Source: Tridacna crocea
Taxonomy: Eukaryota; Mollusca; Bivalvia; Cardiida; Cardiidae
Length of the DNA stretch: 64,000 bases
Assembly: GCA_943736015.1 (NCBI GenBank)
Contig: OX031057.1
Location: 45,532,501 to 45,596,500, forward strand
Direction: 5' to 3'
The notes beneath the pieces were generated by a model that made no database searches, was not told the origin of the DNA, and worked only from the letters and a program-made list of their open reading frames with translations. Position numbers and translations under genes: made by a program. Shown here in pieces: positions 31,875 to 52,467 of this stretch (positions are counted from its first letter, which is position 1; each line of letters begins with the position of its first letter).

Positions 31875-32006
31875 ATTTAACATGCTTGGGTACACTGCAG
31901 AACAAGTCTATATTTTCAACTCGACTATTGCCTCGTCCAAAATATGACTGGTTCTGCAATGTGCTCATCCAATAGAATTCAGTACTGTATCCAAGCATGT
32001 TAAATA
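31875..32006. mobile_element. short foldback element
   Basis: The outer arms ATTTAACATGCTTGG and CCAAGCATGTTAAAT, and the inner arms TGCAGAACAAGTC and GACTGGTTCTGCA, make about 130 bp almost wholly palindromic. TTAA occurs inside each end. No other copy in the window. Confidence 0.65.
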
Positions 32007-32166
32007 ACCTCATATTATTTAACTCTATTTGCTGCACAATACACAATTTTTCGTATGTTACATGAGTTACTACAAAGCCATGTTAGTTCAATTTCTAGGA
32101 GCCAAAACATTCACACAAGTATTGGTATTAGTTCCAGGTAGTTCAATCTACAGAGATCAGTAATGT

Positions 32167-32395
32167 TTAAATCCTTATCAAACAACAAATTTATAGACTG
32201 GTCCAAATTGAGAGCATTTGCGGACAACAAAATCAATGTGACTGAAGAATCAAAATTTGATTTGGGAAGGGTAGAAAACATCATGAGAAAAAGAGAAAAT
32301 GCTGGTTACCAGCATTTTCTCATTTTCCCAAAATGTTTTCAAAAGGCTTCTTTCTTGGGATTGTTAAAAATCGGGATTATGTGGTACAGTGTTAA
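32167..32395 (+). mobile_element. TTAA MITE, class A
   Basis: The left end is TTAAATCCTTATCAAAC, the right GTGGTACAGTGTTAA. Palindrome intact about GCTGGTTACCAGC. Confidence 0.87.
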
Positions 32396-32567
32396 CTTGC
32401 ATGAACTTTTTGTCAATTATTGTTAAGATAATTCTTTTTATGCTGTATGCTTGGTCAATACAGGTTGGTTGCTTTCGGGAGGTGGCCACTTAGATAAATT
32501 GTTTTAAGACAGATCAATGTAGGGAATTCCATAATCCTAGATTATACTTATGTGAAAGTTTTCTTCT

Positions 32568-32796
32568 TATAACTCTTTACCAAATGACAAAATCTTAGAC
32601 TGGTCCAAATTGAAAGCACTTGCAGACAACAAAATAAACGTAAATCAAAAATTGAAATTTGACTTAGGAAGGGTAGAAAATACTGTTGGAAAGGGACAAA
32701 ATGCTAGTTCCAGCATTTTCTCTTTTTCCCACAATGTTTTCAAAAGGCTTTGATCTCAGAGTCGTAAAAACAAGGGATTGTTTGGTACAGGGTTAA
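32568..32796 (+). mobile_element. TTAA MITE, class A
   Basis: The left TTAA has become ATAA. The right end TTTGGTACAGGGTTAA shares the GGTACAG variant with the copy at 32167, so the two may be sister insertions. Confidence 0.85.
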
Positions 32797-33042
32797 ATCA
32801 CTACAAACTTGTAAAATCTATTAGAACTCAAAACATAAACAAACACTTCAAAAGCACACTGTCCGAAACTCACAATTTGATGGGCAGACTCTCTGGATTT
32901 AAGACAAGGTATCAAACCCAATACCCCAGTATATCTGCTGTAACAATTTATATACTGTTGCACAGGAAGGCAATATTGCCTTAAACACTTCATCTGGGCT
33001 GGAACCTATCAAAGCAGTGAGCAACCAAGATAATAATCATGG

Positions 33043-33215
33043 CTTGACCCTTTATCACACGGCAAAATCTTAGACCTATCCAAATTGAATGATGCAATTT
33101 TTCTTGGATAGGATAGAAAACTTTGTGGGAAAAGGAGAAAATGCTGGTTACCAGCATTTTCTCCTTTTCTCACAATGTTTTCAAAAGGCTTGTGTCCCAT
33201 GATCGTTAAAAGGTT
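33043..33215 (+). mobile_element. TTAA MITE, class A, truncated
   Basis: TTGACCCTTTATCACAC begins it. The left outer arm is deleted by about 40 bp. Inner palindrome intact, right terminus missing. Confidence 0.7.
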
Positions 33216-33420
33216 TGACCAAACACTCCAGTGCTCTAACAACCTCAAGAAAACATTTTAGAAAGGAGAAAATGCTGGTTCCAACTTTTTTCTCGATTTT
33301 AAAAGTTTGGCCTTTATTCTTTCCTAAAACAAATTTTCATTTTTGTGTCACATTTTTTCAGTTCATGCACCTGCTAATCCTTTTAATTCGAAAAAGTCTA
33401 AACTTTGTTGTTAAAGACTT
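33215..33420 (-). mobile_element. TTAA MITE, class A, old remnant
   Basis: Recognisable by GGAGAAAATGCTGGTTCC and CTAAAACAAATTTTCATTT. Ends and right arm are decayed. Confidence 0.55.
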
Positions 33421-33709
33421 CAACCATTACAGTACATATTTTAAAAAAAAAGATACAAAATACACAGAGGACAAACATTTGAAATTAAAAAAAAATCTTT
33501 TTCCTACAGTACTGAAATAGTTGTGGAGTACAAGCAAATGCTTCTTATAAACAATTTTGCTCTTTTTCCGGTTACTGAATAGATGTATTTTGAAACCATC
33601 AACTTCAGGGGCACTTGGTTGCTTGTTTATTTCGTTTTTCAACTGTTTTCAGCATTATTTTAGTTATATTGCAGACAGTCAGTGTCAACAAGTGTCTTTG
33701 TACAGAGGA

Positions 33710-33977
33710 TGTTTTTAAAGAATGTTCTTGCAACCAGCACTTTCTTTTTTTATTTTCAAGGTTTTTTTTTTCTTTTCTTTAATTAGACAGAAATCATAAT
33801 TTAAGTTCTGATATAATTGTCATCTGCAAAAGGTTAATTTGTCCTAGAAAGGTAGAAAACATAGTGGCAAAAGAATGAAAAGCTGGTAACCAGTATTTCT
33901 GTTTTTTACCACAATATTTTCATAATTCTTCTAACTTAAGTTTGTTAAAAAAAAGTTTTTTTTCTAGTAAAAGGTTA
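33710..33977. mobile_element. two merged TTAA MITE remnants
   Basis: A right-arm fragment (GCAACCAGCACTTTC) is followed by a second copy (GGTAGAAAACATAGTGGC...AGCTGGTAACCAG) ending GTAAAAGGTTAA at 33977. Confidence 0.5.
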
Positions 33978-35144
33978 AGAAAATAAACAAAAACATCCAT
34001 ATCTTACCTATAATACTGCGATGTAAAATCTGACAAACCAAATGCAGCTTATTGGGTACAAAAACACACAAAATGTAAAGCCTACACGCCACTTATCAAA
34101 CCAAAATTCTGTAAATAAATGTTTGACAATTCATACAATTTAACCACAAATCCTCAAATGATAAAAAGTATACAACTTTTTCCACAATGCTGAACTATTA
34201 ACAAAAAACACACAAACTTTCAATAAACATTCAAGAAAAAGTTGGCTTTTACAACTTCAATCAATACCCTACAGTAGTTAAGTATAAAATTCAAGTGACA
34301 AGAATTAATATCTTTATGTAGTTGTCTATTTGCAAGTTCACTATCATACTAGTATATGACCTTTGATAAAAGGTTACAGGTCCAGATTGACCTTCTTGCT
34401 TACTAAGGTATTATGTGGCAAAGTTGAAATGAGACCATTTAGTTTCTATACAATTTCATATCCATAAGTTGCCATGCAATTTATGGGGTAGTAAGTAATA
34501 TGCCATAATAAGGTCATGAAGCATGCAAAATTCTCTGTTTAATTTTGTGAAACAATATGAAACATACTTTTCATATATCTATTAAAAAGGATGAAGTGTT
34601 TACCCTGCACTAACCAATCTTGTGAGATAATGCTTGTGACTAGTATCTCATATGATGGGGTTTGTATGTAAGTGTGTGAAACATTGGGGGATGCAATACA
34701 GGGTACATGTACTTTTAATTTATTTTACTTTTTCAAGTTTCCCATGATGTATTTAAAAGCCTTGTTCTTCAAGGTTGTAAAACATTTGTCTGATGAAGGT
34801 GCTGTCCTTAGGACCTTAGGATGAAGCCTATCAGTCTAACACACTCAGAATTTAAGGCCTACAAAAAATTATCTTTGTTTAGAGTTTTGGTCCCAGATGC
34901 TGTAGATATGGTTGCTCGCGTTTTTATCTCCTAGATACTTTTTACATGGACTACGTGCCAAGATCACTTCCGACAGATTTCTTTTCTTTCAATTGTAGCG
35001 TAAAAAGTTTAGGGTCTGCTTCATTTTTAAACCCAACACAAATTTGTTTTGAAAGGTCTAAGAGACATGACTGGAATTGTAATTAGCAGGACAAAACCCT
35101 TCACTGCATAGGTTAGTTCTACACCAAACTGCGATGCTTTATAA
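33978..35144. other. unassigned stretch
   Basis: About 1.2 kb with no exon bracketed by splice sites and only weak MITE-like scraps. A GTAAGA donor-like site on the minus strand near 34007 has no convincing coding sequence before it. Confidence 0.35.
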
Positions 35145-35443
35145 TTGTACCGATTGACAAAATGTTAGACTGGTCCAAATTCAAAGAGGTTGCTGACAAC
35201 AAATTAAATGTGGCCAAAATACTAAAAATTTACCTTTGGAAGGATGGAAAACATTATTGGGGAAAGGAGAAATGCTGGTTAAATGTGACTAAAGCATTGA
35301 AATTTGTTTTAGGAATGGATGAAAACATTGCAGGAAATGGAGAAAATGCTGGTGACCAGCATTTTTTTCCTTTTCCCACAATGTTTTCAAAAGACTTCTT
35401 TCTCAAGGACGTGAAAACCAGGGATTGTTTGGGAAAGGGTTAA
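35145..35443 (+). mobile_element. TTAA MITE, class A/C with partial duplication
   Basis: The left inner arm region is present twice (GGAAAGGAGAAATGCTGG near 35260 and GGAGAAAATGCTGG near 35338), each preceded by AATTTGTTTT-like sequence, so the element is about 75 bp too long. The right end is class C, GTTTGGGAAAGGGTTAA. Confidence 0.75.
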
Positions 35444-35445
35444 GG

Positions 35446-35730
35446 AGTTTTATACAGCTTTCTACATTATTTCAGTTATATTGCAGTGGCCAGTGCACCT
35501 ATCCATTCTTTCCTGGGGTTTCTGTTACCATTGCTCCACACAATATTCTTTCCAAGCCAAGTTCTGCTTTCCCACGTAACCATCGTTGAAATGATGGACA
35601 ATTTTGAGAATTTTGAGAGAGGAATGAATCCTGTCACAATGACTATCAGCGATCCTTGGAAAGAAATTGGCAAAGCCGGGAATCACACTGGCAACCTCCT
35701 GTTTTCAAGTCCTGTACACCACAAACTGAG
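35446..35730 (+). repeat. SINE-like dispersed repeat
   Basis: It begins with TTATTTCAGTTATATTGCAG and CCAGTGCACCTATCC, shared with 18935 and 33645. It continues through GGAATCACACTGGCAACCTCC, a possible tRNA-like tail read on the other strand. Confidence 0.5.
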
Positions 35731-36016
35731 CAAACCAGACTCAATATCAAGCCAAAGGAAGAAAACTTTTGTTGAAAACATTATGGGAAAAGGTAGAAAA
35801 TGCCGTTAACCTGCATTTTTCTCTTTTCCCATAAAGTCTCCTACCATTTGGAAAACATATTTTGAGTACCCTAAAAGAGCTTGTCTACAAATCCTTTTAA
35901 TACTTTTTATTACCATTAGCTGAACTATCCAACTTCAAGGCTTGTTATGCCCTACTACCAGAACCACAGGTAAACAAAAGTCAGTGTTATTATATGTGAC
36001 GTAATATCATATCCAT

Positions 36017-36245
36017 TTAACCCTTTACCAAACAACAGAATTTAAGACTGGTCCAAATTGAAAGCACTTGCAGATAACAAAATATAAGTAACCCAAAAAT
36101 TGAAATTTGTTTCCAGCAGGGTAGAAAACATTGTGGGAAAAGGAGAAAATGCTGGTTACCAGCATTTTCTTCTTTTCCCACAATGTTTTCGAAAGGCTTT
36201 TCTATCAGGGTCGTAAAAACCAGGGATTGTTTGGGAAAGGGTTAA
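36017..36245 (+). mobile_element. TTAA MITE, class A left end, class C right end
   Basis: The left terminus CCCTTTACCAAAC is class A and the right TTGTTTGGGAAAGGG is class C. The palindrome between is near-perfect, so the hybrid ends did not prevent spread or arose by exchange within the palindrome. Confidence 0.88.
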
Positions 36246-36417
36246 ACGACCAGATGCATATTGCATTGAGATGCACAGCCTTTTAATACGGCTCTTCATT
36301 TCTCGCTTTCTTTTCCCACATTTAGTAAATAACCTGTAACGATTTAGTTACATTGCAGATTTGCTCTAAGTTTCAGTCATTACGCGGTCTCACAAGAGTT
36401 GTTATTACATAATTTTC

Positions 36418-36570
36418 TTAACTTTTACCACACCATCCAGACTTATTATAGCACAATGTTTCTTCCCTTCCCAAACCAAAGTCTAATTTTTCAGTAACAT
36501 TTTTTTTTTGTCCTCTGCAAATGCTTCCCATTTGGACCAGTTTATCATTTTTGTGTTGGTATAGAGTTAA
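36418..36570 (-). mobile_element. TTAA MITE, class A, internally deleted
   Basis: TTAACTTTTACCACAC leads after about 35 bp to the right half GCACAATGTTTCTTCCC. The left inner arm and axis are gone. It shares TTAA 36567-36570 with the next copy. Confidence 0.8.
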
Positions 36571-36799
36571 CACTTTACCACACAATCCCAACTTTTAACC
36601 ACCCTGTTAAAGAAGCCTTCTGAAAACAATGTAGGAAAAGGAGAAAATGGTGCTGACTGGCATTTTCTCCTTTTCCCACAATGTTTTCTTTCCTTCCTAA
36701 AACAGTTTCAGATTTTTAGGCATGTTTATTTTGTTGTCTGTAAAATTAATGCTTTCAATTTGGACCAGTCTAAAATTTTTTTGTTTGGTAAAGAGTTAA
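36567..36799 (-). mobile_element. TTAA MITE, class A
   Basis: Tandem with the previous deleted copy. The centre is altered to GGTGCTGACTGGC. The right end is GGTAAAGAGTTAA. Confidence 0.87.
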
Positions 36800-37159
36800 C
36801 AAACCATAGTTATGTGCTGGAATATTATGTAAAACAGAGCTCAATGACAGATAACTACGTTAAAGTGACCATAATAAGTATTAGGACTAAAATCTAAAAA
36901 TTTTCTTGTTTTGTAATTAATCCTGTACCAAACAGTAAAATTGCGGAACTGACCAAATGGAAACCATTTGCAATCAACAATTTAAATTTCACCCAAATGA
37001 TGACTATATGCTTGAAAATTTTATTATGGCAGTAATCCTGATGTCTAACTCTACTCTTGTAGTTGATCTGTAGAAAACAATGAGGTTGATTGATTGGATG
37101 GTGTTTAATGCTGCTTTCAACATTATTTCAGCCATATCTCAGCAGCAGCTTACATGTTA

Positions 37160-37318
37160 AACATATTGCCTGGATTTCACCAGTATTAGGCTATGGTTTG
37201 GAAGTGTCTTGCCCAAGGACACTCCCTTGAAAAGAATATATCCAGAAAGGCTTGAACTTGAGACCTCCAAGTTAAGAGTAATACACTTTATCACTGAGCC
37301 GCCCAGGGCTCCCAAACA
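37160..37318 (-). repeat. tRNA-derived SINE-like element
   Basis: Read on the minus strand, GGCTCAGTGATAAAG (complement of 37287-37302) resembles an RNA polymerase III A box. AAGTTCAAGCC (complement of about 37250-37262) resembles a B box, at tRNA-like spacing. It is not a usable tRNA, since no acceptor stem pairs. The preceding 37085-37160 carries a TTGATTGATTGG / TTCAACATTATTTCAG module seen near other SINE-like copies. Confidence 0.55.
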
Positions 37319-37324
37319 ATGAGT

Positions 37325-37553
37325 TTAACTCTTTACACCACAATCCCGACTGTTAATGACCCTGAGAAAGCAAGCCTTTGAAAACATTGTTGGAAAAGGA
37401 GAAAATGCTGGTAACCAGTGTTTTCTCCATTTCCCATGATGTTTTCTACCCTTTCCAAATCAATTTTCAATTTTTGATTTGCATTTATTTCATCGTCTGC
37501 AAACGCATTCAATTTGGACAAGTCCAAAATTTTGTCATTTGGTAAAGAGTTAA
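37325..37553 (-). mobile_element. TTAA MITE, class A
   Basis: Both TTAA sites are present. The core has GGTAACCAGTGTTTTCTCC, with one arm mismatched. Confidence 0.87.
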
Positions 37554-37649
37554 TGAAGAACAGACTGCAGGTAAATGCCTACTAACAGCTTTTGACAGGT
37601 CATTCGGAAGTGTTTTTTTTAGTCTCTACAATCTGCTAAGCAACACTTC

Positions 37650-38804
37650 TTAACCCTTCCCCAAACAATCCCTGGTTTTTGCGGGTCTGGAATAGAAGCC
37701 TTTTGAAAACATTGTGGAACAAGAGCTGCAAATTGTCGCATATCGCCCGTCACACCGCCAGTTGTCCAGGGGGAATACTAATCGTAAAGGGCAGTTAGAG
37801 GAAAATAGCAGTGCAGCAGATTATGGTTCTTATGAACTGCACTCCATAATTTTTCAACAATCATGCATACCAAATGTGAAGATGTTTAGACTGAAAATGA
37901 GTTACATTCTGGACAAGTAGAAAATGCTATGAAAATGACGATCAAAGGGAAATAACTCAAAGACAGCATGAGGTAGAGTTACAATTCTTTCGCACTGCAA
38001 ACCGTATCAACAAACACAAATGCCAAGTTTCGAGTCAATCAGACCAGAGATGACATATTAGTTATGCACCGGACAAGCAGAAAATGCTGTTAAAACGATG
38101 ATCAAAGGGAAATAACTCAAAAACAGCATGTGGTAGAGTTACGATTCTTTTGTACTACACTCCATATCATTGTAACAAACACAACTGCCAAGTTTCAAGT
38201 CAATCGGACCCGAGATGACAAAGTTATGCTGCGGACAAACAGAAAATGCTGTTAAATTGACTATAAAAGGGAAATAACTCAAAGAAAACAAAAGGTAGAG
38301 TTACGGTTCTTTTGCACTGCACTCCGTCTTATTGTAACAAACACAAACACCAAGTTTCAAGTCAATCGGACCAGAGATTACAAAGTTATGCTACGAACAA
38401 GTAGAAAATGCTGTTTAAATGACGATCAAAGTGAAATAACTCAAAGACAGCGCGAGGTAAAGTTATGGTTCTTTAGCACTGCATTCCGTATTATTGCAAC
38501 AAACACAATTGCCAAGTTTCAAGTCAATCGGACCGGAGATGACAAAGTTATGCTCCGGACAAAGAAGGGGATGCAGCACGCCCGCCTGGACGCCCGCCCG
38601 CCATTGGTGATCCCATAATACGTCCCATCTTCGACAGGCGTATAAAAAAAGAGAAAATGCTGGTAACCAGCATTTTCTCCTTTTCCAACAATATTTTCTA
38701 CCCTATCATAGACAGAAATAATCTTTTCAGCAAGAGTTGAATTGTTGTCTACAAATGTTTTCAATTTGGTCTAGTCCAAAAGTTTGTCATTTGGGAAAGG
38801 TTAA
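37650..38804 (-). mobile_element. TTAA MITE, class C/A, split by a tandem-core element
   Basis: The left part 37650-37718 runs TTAACCCTTCCCCAAAC...GAAAACATTGTGG. The right part from about 38645 resumes AAAGAGAAAATGCTGG and ends TTTGGGAAAGGTTAA. The break is within the left inner arm. Confidence 0.85.
37719..38645. mobile_element. pearl/Helentron-like element inserted in a MITE
   Basis: Five units of about 165 to 170 bp contain GGGAAATAACTCAAAGACAG and CCAAGTTTCAAGTCAATCGG. Left end AACAAGAGCTGCAAATTG, right end with GACGCCCGCCCGCC and CGACAGGCGTATAAAA. No target duplication is obvious at the junctions, as expected for Helitron-type insertion. Confidence 0.75.
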
Positions 38805-38871
38805 TACTTACCTTGAATTTTCATAATCATACTGATATTAATCAGCCAGTCCTATAAACTACATCTTGTAA

Positions 38872-39091
38872 CTTTAACAAATTTTGATACTAGTCCAAAT
38901 TGAAAGCATTTGCCAAAAACAAAAAAAAAATTAACGTGACTTAAAAATTGAAACTTATTTTGACGAGAGCAGAAAACATTGTGGAAAAAGAGGAAAATGC
39001 TTGTTGCCATCCTTTTTTTTTCCACACAATGTCTTCACAAGCTTTCTTTCTCAGGGTCATTAAAAGTCAGGGTTATCTGGTGAAGGGTTGA
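38872..39091 (+). mobile_element. TTAA MITE, class A, diverged
   Basis: It starts CTTTAACAAATTTTGATACTAG, with the CTTTACC terminus mostly lost. The centre is CTTGTTGCCATCC, the right end GGTGAAGGGTTGAA. Confidence 0.65.
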
Positions 39092-41011
39092 ATCAGCATT
39101 ACAAGGACTCACACATATATAAATTTCAGTTCAGTGTTAGTTTTGGTCTTATTGCAATTTACCTTTATTCTGGAACAAAATTAATCTGGCTCATTCATAT
39201 ACAACATCCCTGATGAGGTGGCTGAGGATGCACAAAAAAATCAAAGCGTTGAGAATGCTGAAGTGGTATTTGTCAAGGAAACCCAATATGTGGAATTAAT
39301 AGTTTGAAAGAAAAAGAGACATACTGTTCAAATATTGGCTTAAAAGTCAACCCACCAAGCAAATGAATACCTTATTGGTTGAAGGGAGAGTACTCATGTA
39401 TCTCAAAACTATAATTTTAAAATCTCTTAAGCCTTTTACATTTAATTTCCAATATTACTATCAATTACTTCGATCTATAAATATTCAAGAGCAATCAAAT
39501 GGAGTAGCGTGCAATCATAGAACGAAAAAGCCGTGGAACGATTTCGTTTTGGAAAGAAAAGCCCAGGGTCAGTTGGCAAATTTGTATCATTGCACCAATA
39601 AAAGGCTATGAGTGAGAGAAGCTATTTTCAATGAAAAATAAGTATGTCAATGATCGATGGCTTTGCCCAATGTATTTTATTATGCCATTCTAAATAACAT
39701 ATCTGAGTGCAACCGAAAAACTCATTTGCCTGAGAAAAGATGAGTTTAACTGGGTTTATTTCCTTCAGCTTTGCACAAAATAAGATACGTGGTTATCAAA
39801 ATTCAATCTTGAACTCATAGTGGTATTGTCTTCGTCAAATACCACAAAAATCATGTTACCCTTTACCATACAATCGCCTGGTTTTAACGTACCTGAAAAA
39901 CACTGTGGCAAAAGTATAAAATATAATGCACAATATACCATGTAAAATATGAGTAATGTCTATCAAGATTATCTTTTTTTTTCTTTCCATTGGGAAAATG
40001 CTAAACCATATGTCAACATATTAACATGGGCATTATTGGGGTTCATAACATTATCATGATTAACTTAAGCAAAATGAAAAACACAGAGCTTTGCCTTTGG
40101 CAAAACTACAAGTAGCTGTGTGTCAAAGTAGAATGTATAAATATCTTCTAGGCCATAAACTGGTTTTAACAAATAGCTGTGCTTACAAATGTTTTTAGTA
40201 TAACACCGCTTAAAGTGCAACTGTTACAACAATGTCTCAGCTGCTGCATCTGAGTTGATCGAGGAACGATATAGGGGAAATAACTCTAACGTCAAATCAA
40301 ACTCGTTAAGGACACGTATGTTCTGCGGGTCCCTTTGCAGCGCTCTGGTTTTGTGAAGTTACTTGAAATCTCGCGGGGTTCACGGTCTGATAATACAAGA
40401 ATGAAAAGCATCTAAATGGTAAAACCCCAAATTATGATTAATGCAATAGATATACGGTTTCGGTAAGTTTTTAAGAAATAGATGTACGATGTCGTGTAAC
40501 TAAAAATGGCGCCAATGGTTTGAAAACAAAATCACGTATTCTAGTTAAGAAATAGGGGGCAAGTATTTATATCGGTGTATGTAATTGATCATCCTAAGGC
40601 AAATCTTTTAGGGCAACGTCCAAATGAGCGCCAAAGTGTATCAGAAAACGATAGTACTGTACTGATTTCTTGTCCATAAGTGTTGACCCAAACAGTTGGT
40701 CAGCCCGACAAATTACCCCGCAAGATAAACTAATTTGTGGTTACTAGTTCGGTCCCTTTAAAGTTTCGCGTTCAAGGTCTGGTTTTATCCACGCCTTTCA
40801 AGGTTTGGTTTTATCCACGCCTATTTATCCTGAAATACCTTTCTTATTTAAGTTTCACGTTTAATTTATCCACTGGACATCAAAATCATCAACTGAAAAA
40901 AAACCTTATCAGATCTTAGGACCATACTGACACTATTTAATGTTCAGGGCCGAATAGTTCCGCAGCTCAAACATGACCACAAACATGATATGATTTCGGT
41001 TGAACTAATAT

Positions 41012-41082
41012 TCTATAGAGTGAGGGTACGCTGTTTTGATATAGACTCGGTATAGACTCTAAAGAGCGAGGGTACGGTATGA
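41012..41082 (+). repeat. minisatellite-unit-like sequence outside the array
   Basis: CTATAGAGTGAGGGTACG and, 40 bp on, GACTCTAAAGAGCGAGGGTAC closely resemble the 39-bp unit (GACTCTAAAGAGTGAAGGTAC) about 0.9 kb before the array begins. Their roughly 40-bp spacing equals one unit. Confidence 0.6.
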
Positions 41083-41479
41083 CAAAATGGAAACGCTGGC
41101 ATATGTAGAAATATGTATCATATAGAAGATCTGCAGATCAAAATTAAAATTTAAATATCGTCCTAGATATCTGCAAATTAAGAAGAAAATGCCAATATTC
41201 AAGTTATTAAAATTGAACTACTTTATGCCAACTTTAATATCATTGCGCTAAAGCCCGGGACCTTTCGGAAGTAGATTAATTTATCAATTTCATTGACAGG
41301 CGTCTTCTTCTGAAAAGGACTGTTAATACACTTGAAATTACGTTTTTCAGCCCGTCTGGCGTTTTTTGCGATAAAAGAGCATATAAAGATTGCTTTGTCT
41401 GTTTGTATGTGGTTAGGACAGAGAACGTAGTGATGATGTAGTCTACTCCAACGTGTTAAGGTATCTAGAAAGCAGTATA

Positions 41480-41508
41480 AACTGTAAAGCGTTTAGGTAC
41501 ATAAACAA
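41480..41508 (+). repeat. minisatellite-unit-like sequence outside the array
   Basis: AACTGTAAAGCGTTTAGGTACATAAACAA, 29 bp (first 20: AACTGTAAAGCGTTTAGGTA), matches the leftmost array unit ACTCTAAAGAGTTTAGGTAC with a few changes, about 450 bp outside the array. Confidence 0.55.
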
Positions 41509-41595
41509 TATAAGCATGTTTAAAATTTAAAAAAAAATGCATGTTTCCCTTTTGACAGCGACAAAATAAATCGGCTAAAGCTTAATTGATAGTGT

Positions 41596-41720
41596 CCATG
41601 GTTGAGAGATAGAGCGTCTGCCACATAACCAAAGGGACTGGAGTTCAAGACACAGGAGCGGGGTTTTTTAAGTTTGGGATCTTTCATTGATCAACATATC
41701 CGGGTTAAGTACTGGTGTAG
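41596..41720 (+). repeat. tRNA-derived SINE-like element
   Basis: GGTTGAGAGATAGAGCGTCTG resembles an A box and GGAGTTCAAGAC a B box, 40 bp apart. Flanking arms do not pair as a tRNA. Confidence 0.45.
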
Positions 41721-41835
41721 TTCCCAGGAAGCAGAATCAAGAGAGATTTGGATAATTTGTACAAACTTGTTTTTAAATCGCTGATAAATATATATGTTTA
41801 GTTGTTTTATGACCGCAATATGTTTAACATGCGCT

Positions 41836-41950
41836 TTAACCCATTACCACACACTACCTACTTCTGATGACCCTGATAAAGAAGACGTTAGAAAACATTG
41901 TGGGAAAAGGAGAAAATGATGGTAACAAGCAATTTTTCTCGTTCCCACAT
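41836..41950 (-). mobile_element. TTAA MITE, class A, left half beside the minisatellite
   Basis: TTAACCCATTACCACACAC through GTGGGAAAAGGAGAAAATGATGGTAAC and CAATTTTTCTCGTTCCCACA. The first minisatellite unit starts right after CCCACA. The missing right portion is partly recognisable at 48916-48960. Confidence 0.8.
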
Positions 41951-42065
41951 GAAGACTCTAAAGAGTTTAGGTACATACACAACAGAAATGAAGACTCTAA
42001 AGAGTAAAGGTACATACACAGCAGATATGACGATCCTAAAGATTAAAGGTACATACAGAACAGAA

Positions 42066-45000
42066 ATGAAGACTATAAAGAGTAAAGGTACATACAGAAC
42101 AGAAATGAAGACTCTAAAGAGTAAAGGTACATAGACAGCAGATATGACGATCCTAAAGAGTAAAGGTACATACAGAACGGAAATGGAGACTCCAAAGAGT
42201 TAAGGTACATACACAGCAGATATGACGATTCTAAAGAGTGAAGGTACATACAGAACAGAAATGAAGACTCCAAAGAGTAAAGGTACATACACAGCAGTTA
42301 TGACGATCCTAAAGAGTGAAGGAACATACAGAACAGAAATGAGGACTCCAAAGAGTAAAGGTACATACACAGCAGATATGACGATCCTAAAGAGTGAAGG
42401 TACATACAGAACAGAAATGAAGACTCCAAAGAGTAAAGGTACATACAGAACAGAAAAGAAGACTCTAAAGAGTGAAGGTACATACAGAACAGAAATGAAG
42501 ACTCCAAAGAGTAAAGGTACATACACAGCAGATATGACGATCCTAAAGAGTGAAGGTACATACAGAACAGAAATGAAAACTCCAAAGAGTAAAGGTACAT
42601 ACAGAACAGAAAAGAAGACTCTAAAGAGTAAAGGTACATACAGAACAGAAATGAAGACTCCAAAGAGTAAAGGTACATACAGAACAGAAAAGAAGACTCC
42701 AAAGAGTTAAGGTACAAACACAGCAGATATGACGATCCTAAAGAGTGAAGGTACATGCAGAACAGAAATGAAGACTCCAAAGAGTAAAGGTACATACACA
42801 GCAGATATGACGATCCTAAAGAGTGAAGGTACATACAGAACAGAAATGAAGACTCCAAAGAGTAAAGGTACATACACAGCAGTTATGACGATCCTAAAGA
42901 GTGAAGGTACATACAGAACAGAAATGAAGACTCCAAAGAGTAAAGGTACATACAGATCAGAAAAGAAGACTCTAAAGAGTGAAGGTACATACAGAACAGA
43001 AATTAAGACTCCAAAGAGTAAAGGTACATACAGAACAGAAAAGAAGACTCTAAAGAGCAAAGGTACATACAGAACAGAAATGAGTACTCCAAAGAGTTAA
43101 GGTACATACACAGCAGATATGACGATTCTAAAGAGTGAAGGTACATACAGAACAGAAATGAGGACTCCAAAGAGTAAAGGTACATACACAGCAGTTATGA
43201 CGATTCTAAAGAGTGAAGGTACATACAGAACAGAAATGAGGACTCCAAAGAGTAAAGGTACATACACAGCATATATGACGATCCTAAAGAGTGAAGGTAC
43301 ATACAGAACAGAAATGAAGACTCCAAAGAGTAAAGGTACATACAGAACAGAAAAGAAGACTCCAAAGAGTGAAGGTACATACAGAACAGAAATGAAGACT
43401 CCAAAGAGTAAAGGTACATACAGAACAGAAATGAAGACTCCAAAGAGTTAAGGTACAAACACAGCAGATATGACGATCCTAAAGAGCAAAGGTACATACA
43501 GAACGGAAATGAAGACTCCAAAGAGTAAAGGTACATACACAGCAGATATGACGATCCTAAAGAGTGAAGGTACATACAGAACAGAAATGAAGACTTCAAA
43601 GAGTGAAGGTACATACAGAACAGAAAAGAAGACTCTAAAGAGTGAAGGTACATACACAACAGAAATGAAGACTCCAAAGAGTAAAGGTACATACAGAACA
43701 GAAAAGAAGACTCTAAAGAGCAAAAGTACATACACAGAACAGAAATGAAGACTATAAAGAGTAAAGGTACATACAGAACAGAAATGAAGACTCTAAAGAG
43801 TAAAGGTACATAGACAGCAGATATGACGATCCTAAAGAGTAAAGGTACATACAGAACGGAAATGAAGACTCCAAAGAGTTAAGGTACATACAGAACAGAA
43901 AAGAAGACTCTAAAGAGTGAAGGTACATACAGAACAGAAATGTAGACTCTAAAGAGTAAAGGTACATAGACAGCAGATATGACGATCCTAAAGAGTAAAG
44001 GTACATACAGAACGGAAATGGAGACTCCAAAGAGTTAAGGTACATACACAGCAGATATGACGATTCTAAAGAGTGAAGGTACATACAGAACAGAAATGAA
44101 GACTCCAAAGAGTAAAGGTACATACACAGCAGTTATGACGATCCTAAAGAGTGAAGGAACATACAGAACAGAAATGAGGACTCCAAAGAGTAAAGGTACA
44201 TACACAGCAGATATGACGATCCTAAAGAGTGAAGGTACATACAGAACAGAAATGAAGACTCCAAAGAGTAAAGGTACATACAGAACAGAAATGAAGACTC
44301 CAAAGAGTAAAGGTACATACACAGCAGATATGACGATCCTAAAGAGTGAAGGTACATACAGAACAGAAATGAAAACTCCAAAGAGTAAAGGTACATACAG
44401 AACAGAAAAGAAGACTCTAAAGAGTGAAGGTACATACAGAACAGAAATGAAGACTCCAAAGAGTAAAGGTACATACAGAACAGAAAAGAAGACTCCAAAG
44501 AGTTAAGGTACAAACACAGCAGATATGACGATCCTAAAGAGTGAAGGTACATGCAGAACAGAAATGAAGACTCCAAAGAGTAAAGGTACATACACAGCAG
44601 ATATGACGATCCTAAAGAGTGAAGGTACATACAGAACAGAAATGAAGACTCCAAAGAGTAAAGGTACATACACAGCAGTTATGACGATCCTAAAGAGTGA
44701 AGGTACATACAGAACAGAAATTAAGACTCCAAAGAGTAAAGGTACATACAGAACAGAAAAGAAGACTCTAAAGAGCAAAGGTACATACAGAACAGAAATG
44801 AGTACTCCAAAGAGTTAAGGTACATACACAGCAGATATGACGATTCTAAAGAGTGAAGGTACATACAGAACAGAAATGAGGACTCCAAAGAGTAAAGGTA
44901 CATACACAGCAGTTATGACGATTCTAAAGAGTGAAGGTACATACAGAACAGAAATGAGGACTCCAAAGAGTAAAGGTACATACACAGCATATATGACGAT

Positions 45001-46070
45001 CCTAAAGAGTGAAGGTACATACAGAACAGAAATGAAGACTCCAAAGAGTAAAGGTACATACAGAACAGAAAAGAAGACTCCAAAGAGTGAAGGTACATAC
45101 AGAACAGAAATGAAGACTCCAAAGAGTAAAGGTACATACAGAACGGAAATGAAGACTCCAAAGAGTTAAGGTACAAACACAGCAGATATGACGATCCTAA
45201 AGAGCAAAGGTACATACAGAACGGAAATGAAGACTCCAAAGAGTAAAGGTACATACACAGCAGATATGACGATCCTAAAGAGTGAAGGTACATACAGAAC
45301 AGAAATGAAGACTTCAAAGAGTGAAGGTACATACAGAACAGAAAAGAAGACTCTAAAGAGTGAAGGTACATACACAACAGAAATGAAGACTCCAAAGAGT
45401 AAAGGTACATACAGAACAGAAAAGAAGACTCTAAAGAGCAAAAGTACATACACAGAACAGAAATGAAGACTATAAAGAGTAAAGGTACATACAGAACAGA
45501 AATGAAGACTCTAAAGAGTAAAGGTACATAGACAGCAGATATGACGATCCTAAAGAGTAAAGGTACATACAGAACGGAAATGAAGACTCCAAAGAGTTAA
45601 GGTACATACAGAACAGAAAAGAAGACTCTAAAGAGTGAAGGTACATACAGAACAGAAATGTAGACTCCGAAGAGTGAAGGTACATACAGAACAGAAAAGA
45701 AGACTCTAAAGAGTGAAGGTACATACAGAACAGAAATGAAGACTCCAAAGAGTAAAGGTACATACACAGCAGATATGACGATCCTAAAGAGTGAAGGTAC
45801 ATACAGAACAGAAATGAAGACTCCAAAGAGTTAAGGTACATACACAGCAGATATGACGATCCTAAAGAGTGAAGGTACATACAGAAAAGAAATGAAGACT
45901 CCAAAGAGTAAAGGTACATACACAGCAGATATGACGATCCTAAAGAGTGAAGGTACATACAGAACAGAAATGAAGACTCCAAAGAGTAAAGGTACATACA
46001 GAACAGAAAAGAAGACTCTAAAGAGCAAAGGTACATACAGAACAGAAATGAAGACTCCAAAGAGTTAAGG
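42066..46070 (+). repeat. higher-order repeat within the minisatellite
   Basis: A marker unit GAAGACTATAAAGAGTAAAGG occurs at 42066, 43745 and 45463. The sequence after it repeats with high identity, including the rare TACATAGACAGC unit. Spacings are 1679 and 1718 bp, 43 to 44 units plus 2 to 3 bases, the extra bases coming from a CACAGAACAG variant. The second copy lacks a few units found in the first (near 42950). The third diverges after about 45650. Confidence 0.85.
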
Positions 46071-47079
46071 TACATACACAGCAGATATGACGATCCTAAA
46101 GAGTGAAGGTACATACAGAACAGAAATGAAGAGTGTAAAGAGTTAAGGTACATTCGCAACGGATATGACGATCCTAAAGAGTATAGGTACATACAGAACA
46201 GAATTGAAGACTCTAAAAGGTAAAGGTACATACACAGCGGATATGACGATCCTAAAGAGTAAAGGTACATACAGGACAGAAATGAATAGTCTAAAGAGTA
46301 AAGGTACATACGCAACGGATATGACGATCCTAAAGAGTAAAGGTACAGACAGAACAGAAAAGAAGACTCCAAAGAGTAAAGGTACATACACAGCAGATAT
46401 GACGATCCTAAAGAGAAAAGGTACATACAGAACCGAATTGAAGACTCTAAAGAGTAAGGGTACATACGCAACGGAAATGATGATCCTAAAGAGTAAAGGT
46501 ACATACAGAAAGGAAATGAAGACTCTAAAGAGTTAAGCTACATACGCAACGGAAATTACGATCCTAAAGAGTAAAGGTACATACAGAAAAGAAAGGAAAG
46601 TCTAAAGAGTAAAGGTACATACGCAACGGATATGACGATCCTAAAGAGTAAAGGTACATACAGAACAGAAAAGAAAACTCTAAAGAGTAAAGGTACATAC
46701 ACAGCAGATATGACGAACCTAAAGAGTAAAGGTACATACAGAAAAGAAATGAAGACTCTAAAGAGTTAGGGTACATACGCAACGGAAATGACGATCCTAA
46801 AGAGTAAAGGTACATACAGAACAGAAAAGAAGACTCTAAAGAGAAAAGGTACATACGCAACGGAAATGACGATCCTAAAGAGTAAAGGTACATACAGAAC
46901 AGAAATAAAGACTCTAAAGAGTAAAGGTACATACACAGCAGATATGACGATCCTAAAGAGTAAAGGTACATACAAAACAGAAAGGAAGACTCTAAAGAGT
47001 TAAGGTACATACACAGCAGATATGACGATCCTAAAGAGTGAAGGTACATACAAAATCGAAATGAAGACTCTAAAGAGTA

Positions 47080-47102
47080 TAGGTACATACTCTTTAGAGT
47101 CT
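47080..47102. other. inversion point of the minisatellite
   Basis: AAAGAGTATAGGTACATACTCTTTAGAG passes from plus to minus units within a single unit, with GTACATAC in the middle and no spacer. It joins a plus arm of about 5.1 kb to a minus arm of about 1.7 kb head to head. Confidence 0.85.
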
Positions 47103-48915
47103 TCTTTTCTGTTCTGTATGTACCTTTACTCTTTAGGATCGTCATATCCGTTGCGTATGTACCTTAACTCTTTAGAGTCTTCATTTCTGTTCTGTATGTA
47201 CCTTTACTCTTTAGGATAGTCATATCCATTGGGTATGTACCTTAACTCTTTAGAGTCTTCAGTTCTGTTCTGTATGTACCTTTACTCTTTAGGATCGTCA
47301 TATCCATTGGGTATGTACCTTTACTCTTTAGAGTCTTCAGTTCTGTTCTGTATGTACCCTTACTCTTTAGGATCGTCATATCCGTTGCGTATGTACCTTT
47401 ACTCTTTAGAGTCTTCAGTTCTGTTTTGTATGTACCTTAACTCTTTGGGATCGTCATATCCGTTGCGTATGTACCTTTACTCTTTAGAGTCTTCTTTCCT
47501 GTTCTGTATGTACCTTTACTCTTTAGGATCGTCATATCCGTTGCGTATGTACGTTTACACTTTAGAGTCTTCATTTCTGTTCTGTATGTACCTTTACTCT
47601 TTGGGATCGTCATATCAGTTGCGTATGTACCTTAACTCTTTAGAGTCCTCACAGCTTTTGTGTTTGTACCTTAACTCTTTAGAGTTTTCATTTCTGTTTT
47701 GTATGTACCTTAACTCTTTAGGATCGTCATATCTGTTGTGTTTGTACCTTAGCTCTTTAGAGTCTTCATTTCTGTTTTGTATGTACCTTTACTCTTTAGG
47801 ATCGAGATATCTGTTGCGTATGTACCTTAACTCTTTAGAGTCTTCATTTCTGTTCTGTATGTACCTTTACTCTTTAGGATCGAGATATCTGTTGCGTATG
47901 TACCTTAACTCTTTAGAGTCTTCATTTCTGTTCTGTATGTACCTTTACTCTTTAGGATCGTCATATCCATTGCGTATGTACCTTTACTCTTTAGAGTCTT
48001 CAGTTCTGTTCTGTATGTACCTTTACTCTTAAGGATCGTCATATCCGCTGCGTATGTACCTTTACTCTTTAGAGTCTTCAGTTCTGTTCTGTATGTACCC
48101 TTACTCTTTAGGATCGTCATATCCGTTGCGTATGTACCTTTACTCTTTAGAGTCCTCTCAGCTGTTGTGTATGTACCTTAACTCTTTAGAGTCTTCATTT
48201 CTGTTTTATATGTACCTTTACTCTTTAGGATCGTCATATCTGTTATGTATGTACCTTAACTCATTAGAGTCTTCATTTCTGTTTTTTATGTACCTTTACT
48301 CTTTAAGATCTTCATATCTGTTGTGTATGTCCCTTAACTCTTTAGAGTCTTCATTTCTTTTCTATATGTACCTTTACTCTTTAGGATCGTCATATCTGTT
48401 GTGTATGTACCTAAACTCTTTAGAGTCTTCACTTCGGTTTTATATGTACCTAATCGCTTTAGAGTCTTCATTTCTGTTTTGATGTACCTATTCCCTTTAG
48501 AGTTGTCATCATTGTTGATAGGAACCTAATCTCATTACAGTCTTTATCATTGTTGTGTACGCACCGAATTTCTTTTAAGTCGTCAAGTCTGATGTGTATG
48601 TACCTTAACTCTTTAGAGTCTTCATTTCTGTTGTGTATGTACCTTAACTCTTTAGAGTCTTCATTTCTGTTTTGTATGTACCTTAACTCTTTAGAGTCTT
48701 CATTTCTGTTTTGTATGCACCTTAACTCTTTAGAGTCCTCACAGCTGTTGTGTTTGTACCTTAACTCTTTCGAGTCTTCATTTCTGTTTTGTATGTACCT
48801 TAACTCTTTAGTTTGTGAAGAAGACTCTAAAGAGTTTAGGTACATACAAAACAGAAATTATTCTAAAGAGATTAGGTACATAGTTAACCATAATGCCGAT
48901 TAGGCACATAGACAA

Positions 48916-48960
48916 CAGTGTTTTCTAGTCTTTCTGATTCAAATTTGAATCAATTTTTAC
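48916..48960 (-). mobile_element. right remnant of the MITE that holds the minisatellite
   Basis: ACAGTGTTTTCTAGTCTTTC and CAAATTTGAATC resemble the class A segment just right of the palindrome (CACAATGTTTTCTACCCTTC ... CAAATTTCAAATT). It completes, imperfectly, the half-element at 41836. The outer arm and TTAA are not recognisable. Confidence 0.5.
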
Positions 48961-49052
48961 ACCTTTAATTTTTCGAAATTTTAAATGTGTATAAGGCTTG
49001 CCATTATTAATGTTTTTGTAATGTTTTCATGTCGTATTAATATGTCCCAATA

Positions 49053-49484
49053 TAACTCTTTACCAAACAAGTCTGAGTTTTTTAGTTCTGATAACCAAGA
49101 GGAAGAAGCGTGAAAATCGCAAAATCATTGCGGGAAAAGAAGACAGTGCTGGTAACCAACAGTTTCTCCTTTTCCATAACGTTTACTACACTTCAAAGAC
49201 AATCCTGTCATTTGATATACATCTATCATAATTTGTCATCTGCAAATGCTTTCAGTATAGATAAATATAAAATGTGACCATCACAGGGACGTAGGAAGCA
49301 ATTCAAGATGGGGGGGATGCTAACTCGTATTTTATGGAAAATTTTGCGTCGATTGAAACTATCCGCGACAAAGTGTAATTTGAATTACCATGATTGTCAA
49401 AATCATTTGTGGGGGGGGGGGGGGGGGGGGCTTACCCCCTCCCCCCCCTCTGTTCCTACGGGCCTGCATCAGGTAACGAGTTAA
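49053..49484 (-). mobile_element. TTAA MITE, class A, split near its right end
   Basis: The main part is 49053-49279, diverged, with core GCTGGTAACCAAC. The terminus AGGTAACGAGTTAA is found only at 49471-49484, after the insertion of a separate element. Confidence 0.7.
49284..49467. mobile_element. small TIR element with G20 / C8 tracts inside a MITE
   Basis: The ends GGGACGTAGGAAGCA and the complement of GGCCCGTAGGAACAG are inverted repeats. Flanking CATCA on both sides (about 49278-49283 and 49467-49471) is a candidate target duplication. It includes a G20 run (49411-49430). Confidence 0.6.
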
Positions 49485-49715
49485 TTTTCTTCAAAACGAG
49501 AAAATTTAAGACATGTCGACATCGAAAGCATAAATTTGCAAGTGACATTTGAAATGTTGTTCAATTTTTTTTTTTAAATTTATCTTTCAAAAGGTAGAAA
49601 ACATTGCGGGAAAAGAAAAAAAAATGCTGGTTACCAGCATTTTATTCTTTTCCCACACTGTTTTTAAAAACCTTCTTTTTCGGGATCGTTAAGAGTCGAC
49701 CTACGGTATGGTTTG
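49481..49715 (+). mobile_element. TTAA MITE, class A, diverged
   Basis: It shares the TTAA at 49481 with the split copy. The palindrome GCTGGTTACCAGC is kept, the ends are decayed. Confidence 0.65.
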
Positions 49716-49912
49716 TATAGAATTAGAAAACTTGTTGGCAATGACTTTATATATGTATACTACATGTCCTTTTTCTGCCCATGTAGATTCCAGTCATTTA
49801 ATTAAAAGCATACATGTAGATCTATAATGAGTTTGAAATCCAAAGACTTAAAAAGCTTAGAAAATGACAATTGCTACATTTGGGATTTTTACTATTTTTG
49901 AAGACTAGTCAA

Positions 49913-50133
49913 TTAACTCTTTAGCAGACAATTTCGAGTTTTCGCATTTAGCAAACCGATGAAAAAGTCTGTTTGAAAACATCGTGGAAAAAAGAGAAAA
50001 TACAAGAAACGGCATTGTCTCGTTTTCTCACTATGTTTTCTAGCCTATCATACAAATTCTGCCATTTTAACCTGAATTAAATTGTCGTCTGCGAATCCTT
50101 TTGATTTGGACAAGTCGTTCTCGTGTGAGTTGA
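49913..50133 (-). mobile_element. TTAA MITE, class A, upstream of CMTR2
   Basis: TTAACTCTTTAGCAGAC left, GTGTGAGTTGAA right. The axis is lost (ACAAGAAACGGCATTG). It lies 230 bp before the CMTR2 start codon. Confidence 0.7.
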
Positions 50134-50238
50134 ACTAAAATTCCAAAGCGTTTGAATCAGTTTCAAGCTACAAACATACGGGATATTCCGGCAAAATTTA
50201 AGCCGGAACTACTTTAACCCTCGCTCATTCTACCGCTG

Positions 50239-50257
50239 TGTACCTTCACGCTATAGA
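50239..50257 (-). repeat. minisatellite-unit-like sequence right of the array
   Basis: On the minus strand CTATAGCGTGAAGGTACAC resembles the unit CTCTAAAGAGTGAAGGTACA. It lies 1.3 kb beyond the right end of the array, in the sequence just upstream of CMTR2. Confidence 0.45.
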
Positions 50258-50365
50258 TTATTAGATCCACGTATGATTTCGGACAAGCCTAATAAAAGCA
50301 TAGACATGCGTTCGTCGAAAGCGTAAAAAAACTATTTTGATTCGAGTTCTTTTTTATACAGTAGA

Positions 50366-50840
50366 ATGGATACATACACTAGTAAAGAAAAAAGAGTTCT
50401 AAAGCATAACGACCAGTTGACACCACCGAATCGAGACAAAATTCTTAGTTTATTCAAGAGAAAATTCGTGTACGACGATATAGAACATGCTGATGATTTA
50501 TTCAAAACAGTTAACTCTTTACGTGCACAATATGACATCTGGGAAGTTCAAAACTACATGGACATGAAATCTAAAATGAATAAACTGAAGTGTAGCTTAA
50601 ATGACAAAGATGTCATACAGTGGCATATACACACTAAACGAGTCAACCCAGCAAAGAAGGTCGTACTCAGAATTTTGCGATCTTATAGACCCGATTTTTG
50701 CACACAGGCTTGGTGCAAGTTCTACGAAATAGCTTGCAACTATTTGCATGTTGATGAATGTATGCCATATTTTTCTGTCCACCTATGTGAAGCACCAGGT
50801 GCCTTTATTGCAAGCCTGAACCATTATCTTTACACTATTG
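50366..50840 (+). CDS. CMTR2: CMTR2 first coding exon
   Basis: 475 nt, 158 codons plus one base, donor GTAAGC. It carries the N-terminal region, the first catalytic lysine and the SAM-binding loop. TTCTTTTTTATACAG just upstream is a plausible 3' splice site for a 5' UTR intron. Confidence 0.93.
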
Positions 50841-52467
50841 GTAAGCAATATTACCCTCGGTAACAAGCAAAAAGGGTCATTCAGACATTTGCGTAAAGTG
50901 TCATCTCAGATCAGTCAGTGCGAACTGCCTTTGCAGTTTGTGCAGTCTTATCCAAGACAGCAATTTACAACTACATTAGGTTTCGTTTGTCAGTAGACTC
51001 GTGCAAAACAGAAAATTACATAAAAATGGAAAGTCTTGTTTCAGATTAGCTGTGCAGACTGTGCATGCTGATTGGGGAAAACACTTTTTGGCAATATCTG
51101 AAAGTCTCTTTTCCAATGTTGCAGGCCCCCTGGTAGTTGAGACAAATGCCAAAAGGTGAGACGTACTGTGTGCAAGAGGGTAGGGGGCAAAAAAAATTGT
51201 TGTGGTAGACCTCTCCTTCATGCATGGCTTCATCCCAGTATAAATACCTAATAAGTGCATTTTTTGAGATTTCTCCTTGACTCAGTGATAATGGAGTTGG
51301 CTTTTTGGTCTTAGCATACTAGGTTTGAATCCAGCCTGGTCCCTGTATTTCTCCCAAACATTTGTTAATTTGTGTCTTTGTTAGAGACCTTGTTCATAAG
51401 ATACTGGCTGCTCTGGGATAGCCACTGAGCCACTAATCCTATTTGTTGTCCGAATATGGACTTTCTGCCTAATAAGGCTTTGAGTCATCAATAAAAGACA
51501 ACTTGGGGGGGGGGGGGGAGGGGGGGCGGGGAGGAGGGAGGGTTTACTGTAGACCACTCCTGCATGCATGGCTTCATCCCAGTTTAAATACAATACCAAA
51601 CAACTGCATTAGGGAAAATTGTTATTAGCTCTGTAGTTATAGTCTGTCTTTTGTCCAGGCGTTCTAGGTTCAAATCCTACCTGAGACCTGTATTTCTGCC
51701 ATGCATTAATTTTGACCATTTGTTTCATTTTTACGGACTTTGTTCATAAGAATATTGATCTATGTCAGCCTGTACAGTTTGCACACGCAATATGAGTCAA
51801 AAGTGTGCTATTTGTGAATTTTTTGCATATATTAGGGCCATTCTACCTCATAATTCTGTTGGTTGTTAGATAAAATGGATCCCTAATTATGTAATAACTT
51901 GTTTGTGGTACCTATCCTAGAGATGTCATGACTTGAATGATTTCAGAATGATCCCAATACAGTGAACAAGTTGACACATGTCCACATTGACGCATAGCTG
52001 AACGACCTCAGGTTTTCAAGACCATTAGGAAGAAGGTTTTTTGAAAGCACTGTTGGAAAAGGAGAAAATGTTTGTAATGCATTTTCTTCTCTTATAACCA
52101 CAGTGTTCTTCAATTTGTAAAGGAAGAATTATATTTTTTGAATTACATTTACTTTAAGTCTTTAATATTAACTCTGTGTATAAAATAATATGTGGAACCT
52201 CAGAACTACATTTACTGTTTTTAGGTACTACATATTATTTAATGAAACAGTGTTCCAGCAGACAGCTTTTGACAAATCTGTTTGAAATTATTACATTAAA
52301 TAGCCAAACGTATAAACATACATGCAAAAGGAGAAAATTGTTCATAGAGCAAGGTCAGGGTATGTACCATTCCAATTCTGAATTCCTGTATAAAGAGACA
52401 AAAGTTTGATTTATCCATGCTTTACTGAACAATCCTATTATTTCACAACCCGGTCCCTGAAGCAGGA

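Follow-up and report, generated by a model that had tools for sequence, protein, structure and literature searches.

Foldback elements such as FB of Drosophila and TU of sea urchins carry long inverted repeats made of short tandem repeats. The same is true of the element described here, although FB and TU have other repeats and their arrays reach close to the element ends; Galileo, which is also considered below, makes target-site duplications (TSDs) of 7 bp. The element under study lies in a 64,000-nucleotide stretch of the bivalve Tridacna crocea (GenBank assembly GCA_943736015.1, contig OX031057.1, positions 45,532,501 to 45,596,500 of the forward strand; hereafter the window, numbered from its first letter), in which a plus-oriented array of 39-bp units runs directly into a minus-oriented one. 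We consider it probable that this array forms the middle of a foldback transposon that is young, nonautonomous, and of the cut-and-paste kind, and that most likely depends on a transposase of the Mutator-like element (MULE)/Rehavkus type acting in trans. The kind of element is known, and the family appears to be undescribed within the literature searched: no published description of it was found in the literature on foldback, Mutator, and Rehavkus elements or on mollusc minisatellites, repeat libraries such as Repbase being outside the scope of this search.

From its TSD and the architecture and unit of its array, we place the window element among the nonautonomous foldback/Mutator-type elements, such as Tm1, Tetris, and Rehavkus. 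Tetris of Drosophila virilis is likewise nonautonomous, carries tandem repeats in inverted halves, and varies in array length; its TSDs measure 8–10 bp, a partner was not found for it, and its repeat has a 37-bp stretch in common with the terminal domain (PMC4079207). It differs in that its units of 220 bp, of which the described allelic pair has three or four, lie inside the terminal inverted repeats (TIRs) (PMC4079207), whereas the window element has over 170 units of 39 bp in arrays that meet directly at the centre. The MULE-related Rehavkus resembles the window element in having a 9-bp TSD and a minisatellite inside the element, placed before the 3′ repeat, and differs by its PHD-finger transposase, of which the window element has none; the only hosts named for it are arthropods and annelids (PMC6446971). 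In Rehavkus-1_TC, the inverted termini are described as carrying a satellite of 164 bp (PMC10218199).

Tm1, a Mutator/Foldback element of root-knot nematodes, shares with the window element variable-length composite TIRs with an internally repeated motif, TSDs of mostly 9 bp, and the existence of transposase-less groups; in contrast, its motif of ~14 bp lies in the TIRs, one complete element measures 1,080 bp, and the corresponding part of its description does not mention an opposed minisatellite core (PMC3169594). Galileo is similar in its foldback-like long TIRs and in tandem repeats with additional binding sites for the transposase (PMC3688188, PMC3573991), but it belongs to the P superfamily, and its D. 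mojavensis tandem units are ~210 bp long and present in two or three copies (PMC3573991). For both Tetris (PMC4079207) and Galileo (PMC3688188), a model has been put forward in which tandem copies of a terminal motif provide extra transposase-binding sites.

The element, its ends, and its copies

Copies of the element were sought in the genome assembly (31 contigs, 1.05 Gb in total). Searching with 201 bp from the start of the array gave 695 first-look candidates, of which the best 40 were scored and fall at 40 places. Among these, the top score was reached at five places on five chromosomes, the window included, and two of the 40 places are 3,040 bp apart inside one element (L027). With the left 263 bp as query, the best 40 of 568 candidates were scored and all 40 stood at 100%. 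For comparison we took 20 further loci from the 39 other places, 10 kb each, which together with the window make 21 loci; all of them were chosen via the array query, so that copies free of an array would escape. Homology among the copies stops sharply at 40998 and 50271, the same places at which the TIRs lie, and the element delimited in this way has the following parts.

40998–50271, plus strand: whole element, 9,274 bp, a probable nonautonomous foldback-type DNA transposon (homology edges, ends, and TSD)
40989–40997, no strand: left TSD, TATGATTTC (same 9-mer at 50272–50280)
50272–50280, no strand: right TSD, TATGATTTC (same 9-mer as on the left)
40998–41029, plus strand: 5′ TIR, GGTTGAACTAATATTCTATAGAGTGAGGGTAC (match to the reverse-complemented 3′ end)
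41050–41088, plus strand: subterminal unit-like motif containing GACTCTAAAGAGCGAGGGTACGG (unit scan)
41445–41513, plus strand: two degenerate 39-bp-like head units (alignment score 51, reached by 0 of 3000 shuffles; one also in the unit scan)
41837–41948, plus strand: half of an abundant miniature inverted-repeat transposable element (MITE; TTTAACCCATTACCA..., GTGGGAAAAGGAGAAAATG hairpin) adjoining the array (limits by eye)
50240–50271, minus strand: 3′ TIR, with the end ...ATTATTAGATCCACG (comparison with the 5′ end)

The element starts with GGTTGAACTAAT... and ends with ...ATTAGATCCACG, and its TIRs are imperfect, matching at 83.9% over 31 bp when the 5′ end is compared with the reverse-complemented 3′ end. 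An exact 9-bp TSD was found in 14 of the 16 loci with both ends matched in full; the exceptions are L017, which has 8 bp, and L021, in which the 9-bp repeat is displaced by 8 bp. Left out of this count were L011, L012, L027, and L028, which have no right end in the stretch, and L016, the right end of which falls short of the last bases and shows an 8-bp repeat. TIRs combined with a TSD of fixed length at different targets are what a cut-and-paste transposon leaves. A Helentron-type rolling-circle element with satellite-like repeats would be another way to disperse such arrays, and Helentron-borne tandem arrays have reportedly been seen in a bivalve (oysters); rolling-circle elements, however, are not known to make a TSD, and an element with TIRs and 9-bp TSDs does not fit the definition of a Helentron or Helitron, which makes this origin a very remote one.

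A 25-bp terminal motif (up to 2 mismatches) has 200 matches in the genome against 0 for the reversed control. Among the matches listed (100 of the 200), left and right ends form 36 pairs spaced 5.4–14.4 kb apart, with a median of 7.5 kb, and 3 right ends have no partner. In the same set, 25 of the 61 left ends are without a right partner, which counts against our reading but is partly an effect of the list covering 100 of the 200 matches. Outside the arrays, the copies diverge by a median of 0.9% and by 1.8% at most (136 pairs among 17 copies), from which we conclude that the family is young. Outside the arrays and their edge, the element has no open frame that reaches 110 aa, and since no recognised protein is encoded, the element presumably moved in trans.

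With respect to foldback elements in general, large inverted halves built from short tandem repeats are present in 19 of the 21 loci, the other two being uninformative. In classical foldback elements the repeats lie within the TIRs, whereas here only single unit-like motifs occur in or near them, and the array starts 951 bp inside the left end and ends ~1.4 kb inside the right one. The element behaves as a foldback type, yet we do not class it as a classical FB element.

Individual copies also carry insertions of their own within the arrays, among them a short interspersed nuclear element (SINE) in L011 and a complete MITE in L027. The minus array of L017 contains a palindromic insert consisting of an inverted pair of tRNA-like sequences, and in L028 two plus-array blocks are separated by an insert of ~6 kb that contains an open frame of 1,576 codons and is perhaps a retroelement.

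The inverted array and its flip

The array at the centre of the window element consists of the following features.

41949–47090, plus strand: plus-oriented 39-bp array, 131.8 units (Tandem Repeats Finder, TRF)
47088–48811, minus strand: minus-oriented 39-bp array, 44.3 units (TRF)
47063–47104, no strand: flip junction, 18-nt perfect arms around 6 nt (sequence inspection)
about 48818–48883, plus strand: one or two degenerate relic units, again in plus orientation (unit scan)

The initial annotation had described about 130 plus and about 44 minus units that are inverted and meet at 47085, and both the TRF counts and the junction agree with this. The junction reads GAAGACTCTAAAGAGTAT-aggtac-ATACTCTTTAGAGTCTTC, an exact palindrome with arms of 18+18 nt and a centre of 6 nt, and the two array orientations overlap by 3 bp, TAC. 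Units of forms A and B alternate, giving the array a dimeric pattern, and within the plus array a long block has been duplicated, which is visible at a lag of 44 units at which 30% of unit pairs are identical.

The order plus/minus/plus is present in 19 of the 21 loci, the window included; of the two uninformative loci, L012 breaks off within its plus array, and in L028 the long insert intervenes. A common junction was found in 18 of the 19 loci when point differences are allowed, and L024 has a different joint. The relic plus units 3′ of the minus array are present in all 19 loci read that far. Array sizes differ widely between copies: plus arrays have 27 to at least 218 units and minus arrays 12 to 51, with the parts summed where insertions or a brief switch back to plus divide the minus array (L011, L017, L023, and L027). 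A two-orientation scan, in which single outlying units were counted, parsed 2,056 plus units (333 types) and 724 minus units (156 types), with only 9 types in common. Copies largely agree in the order of unit types where the plus array begins, beside the junction, and where the minus array ends, whereas the array middles vary through block duplications and deletions. This suggests that a new insertion receives its arrays from the parent copy and that their interior is then remodelled.

Assembling long tandem arrays is difficult, and the minus block might therefore be a mis-joined inversion. Such an artefact is extremely improbable given that 18 of 19 loci have the same junction despite differing array lengths and that each orientation has its private unit variants. 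Similarly, the tandem structure and the block duplications would suit an origin in which a satellite was amplified in place and then inverted locally, independently of transposition, but the common ends, the 9-bp TSDs, and the dispersed near-identical copies leave this account with next to no credibility. The recurrent flip and junction, together with the TSDs and the near-identical copies, make both an assembly error and a local flip very unlikely. Instead of being the local minisatellite event that had been proposed, the flip is passed on with a dispersed transposon that has ends and 9-bp TSDs of its own, and from the sequences compared it very likely goes back to one ancestral fold-back event that was spread by transposition. 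The odd giant inverted repeat is explained in this way as mobile DNA.

As to how the flip arose, one ancestral fold-back or template switch at the 3-bp microhomology TAC may have made the array head-to-head, and later unequal exchange or slippage would have altered the array middles while the edges and the junction were inherited with transposition. A symmetric fold-back of neighbouring units was considered and rejected: in the window, L020, and L023, unit identity follows the odd/even pattern of the A/B dimer without an excess on the exact diagonal. This suggests either remodelling of the arms after the flip or an origin other than exact copying of one arm into the other.

The inverted array could also, in line with the dsRNA idea of the initial annotation, be a source of hairpin RNA for small-RNA silencing of the family or its neighbours. 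The arms of inverted pairs reach 1,394 nt with 81–86% complementarity (best 25 of 415 pairs by length), the longest exact complementary stretch between plus and minus array is 64 nt, and the flip is common to 19 loci, which would suit such a role. A folded array transcript would, however, form an imperfect duplex, and the anatomy does not demand a role at the RNA level; we regard this explanation as unlikely. A coding function of the array was rejected as well: the 39-bp (13-codon) period leaves long frames on both strands, and their strand, frame, and length differ between copies. Four such frames were scanned; three had no Pfam family at an E-value of 0.1 and one had 12, all below the curated cut-offs.

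Origin of the unit and the putative mobilising transposase

The unit consensus is ATGAAGACTCTAAAGAGTAAAGGTACATACAGAACAGAA, next to which a B form exists. When the unit consensus and the B form were aligned with the 5′ TIR, TCTATAGAGTGAGGGTAC, 2 and 5 of 3000 shuffles, respectively, matched or exceeded the observed scores, the shuffles in these comparisons preserving base composition only. The corresponding counts were 6 and 0 for the reverse-complemented 3′ TIR and 0 and 0 for the decayed head units at ~41445–41513. The motif TCTAWAGAGTRARGGTAC is common to the 5′ TIR and the 39-bp unit. Polarity agrees too, being plus at the left terminus and in the left array and minus at the right terminus and in the right array. 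Since the core of the unit matches the TIR and the polarities agree, the array most likely derives from an amplified subterminal, possibly transposase-binding, motif. In the mechanism that we envisage, a terminal or subterminal motif would have been amplified in tandem before the fold-back, and the units, by analogy with the tandem repeats of Galileo, might act as multiple accessory transposase-binding sites, which is the least certain of its steps.

Several observations weigh against this derivation and the proposed function. The relic plus units to the right of the minus array break the polarity rule, and the arrays lie ~0.95 and 1.4 kb inside the ends and not within the TIRs proper. Rare changes in the units are commoner in the TIR-like core than expected, both in plus units (75 of 126 against 58.2 expected) and in minus units (23 of 33 against 15.2), counts to be read with the filter in mind, which drops changes at already variable positions and thereby favours the core. 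In these counts of core versus rest, purifying selection on the units was not seen, and since the core shows no deficit of rare changes, there is no sign of individual units being selected as binding sites.

The array may accordingly be viewed as a neutral by-product of slippage- and palindrome-prone DNA without a role in transposition or silencing. This is a serious rival, which we place not far below an even chance: array length is very variable among elements with equally sharp ends and TSDs, and the undepleted core points in the same direction. On the other hand, hundreds of array bases are present in both polarities in all 19 informative loci, which were selected by their arrays, and the unit matches the TIR. 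By analogy with Galileo and Tetris, the model of extra binding sites is the one we favour for the array. It is unlikely, by contrast, that the element is a distinct foldback variant in which a terminal transposase-binding motif was amplified into two opposed kilobase arrays joined in the middle, such that each insertion would be a long hairpin locus and array length would tune mobility or self-silencing. Whichever applies, the copies are young insertions that provide a natural series, with array length as their main difference and a datable flank for each, and this series makes the effect of motif number or of the palindrome on transposition, stability, and small-RNA silencing testable.

Concerning the transposase, the 9-bp TSD lies within the 8–11 bp described for the Mutator superfamily (PMC6446971), a length that is not by itself specific to MULEs. 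The element has the 9-bp TSD and the internal minisatellite of Rehavkus and contains no PHD-finger transposase. The genome has 61 matches to the MULE transposase family PF10551, and possible helpers therefore exist. We read 12 of these 61 loci, namely L029–L036 (3.3 kb each) and L037, L038, L039, and L042 (7.9–9.3 kb), together with the extensions L040 and L041; the flanks of L029–L036 cover 1.5 kb per side, by which more distant ends would escape. In the resulting 14 stretches, no transposase with the ends or units of the element was found, a point against the proposed mobilisation within the 12 loci read. The best match to TIR or unit had an E-value of 0.011 (unit, 37 bp, in L031) and all others were at 0.077 or above, whereas the same queries gave 1e-26 to 5e-28 in a positive-control copy; with 14 stretches and three queries, 0.011 is at the level of chance. 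Because no transposase with these ends was found, the assignment to a superfamily follows from TSD length and architecture.

The loci rejected as partners, each being without the element's ends, are L037 (FLYWCH plus MULE), L038 (PHD at an E-value of 3.6e-6 plus MULE just under the cut-off), L039 (MULE plus C48 peptidase), and L042 (a MULE-family gene, OTU-like by eye). Locus L038 with its extension L040 (C15:112300-126100) has an anatomy of its own: the PHD-MULE gene is followed by GTCCGCAA motifs ~29 bp apart in plus/minus/plus blocks, a second opposed cluster of short repeats in this genome. A copy in opposite orientation, identical over 4,105 bp, lies ~83 kb away. The combination of a PHD-MULE gene with opposed 29-bp repeats resembles Rehavkus, and we take it as a parallel, not as proof of kinship.

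Neighbourhood and other repeats

On the right side, a plus-strand open frame at 50327–50863 starts 56 bp downstream of the element; its first ATG is at ~50366, which puts the element ~95 bp 5′ of the ATG. The product matches the EP424R methyltransferase in PDB (E-value 9e-5) and has no Pfam family at an E-value of 0.01; we take it to be CMTR2-like and a probable cap-methyltransferase. On the left side, a six-frame scan of ~32000–40997 gave no Pfam family at an E-value of 0.01, although a gene without a Pfam match could still lie there. A position between two divergent genes, as initially annotated, thus finds no support, with a methyltransferase-like frame on the right and no Pfam family on the left. 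Eight open frames elsewhere in the window have no Pfam family either. The element is an example of a transposon that disperses minisatellites across the genome, one of them beside this frame of presumed identity.

No Rfam family of structured RNA was detected in 38000–52000 and no tRNA in the window (ARAGORN). G-runs lie at 49411–49450, within the element tail and followed by C-runs, and again at 51505–51542. In the element head, an old copy of a tRNA-like SINE with the tail block AGTTCCCAGGAAGCAGAATC was recognised by eye at ~41590–41790, and a younger-looking copy is the one in the minus array of L011; neither ARAGORN (window) nor Rfam (38000–52000) called the copy at ~41590–41790.

The hairpin arm GTGGGAAAAGGAGAAAATGCTGG occurs at 88 places in the window (1906–63943) with up to 3 mismatches, where 0 are expected, and often in facing pairs. 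It forms the centre of a MITE of ~240 bp with TTAACCCATTACCA-type ends, of which the L027 array contains a complete copy. Finally, tandem arrays of 155–166-bp units are present at 7543–8394, 19485–20391, 37911–38562, and 59665–60111, a unit size known from other satellite-bearing elements.

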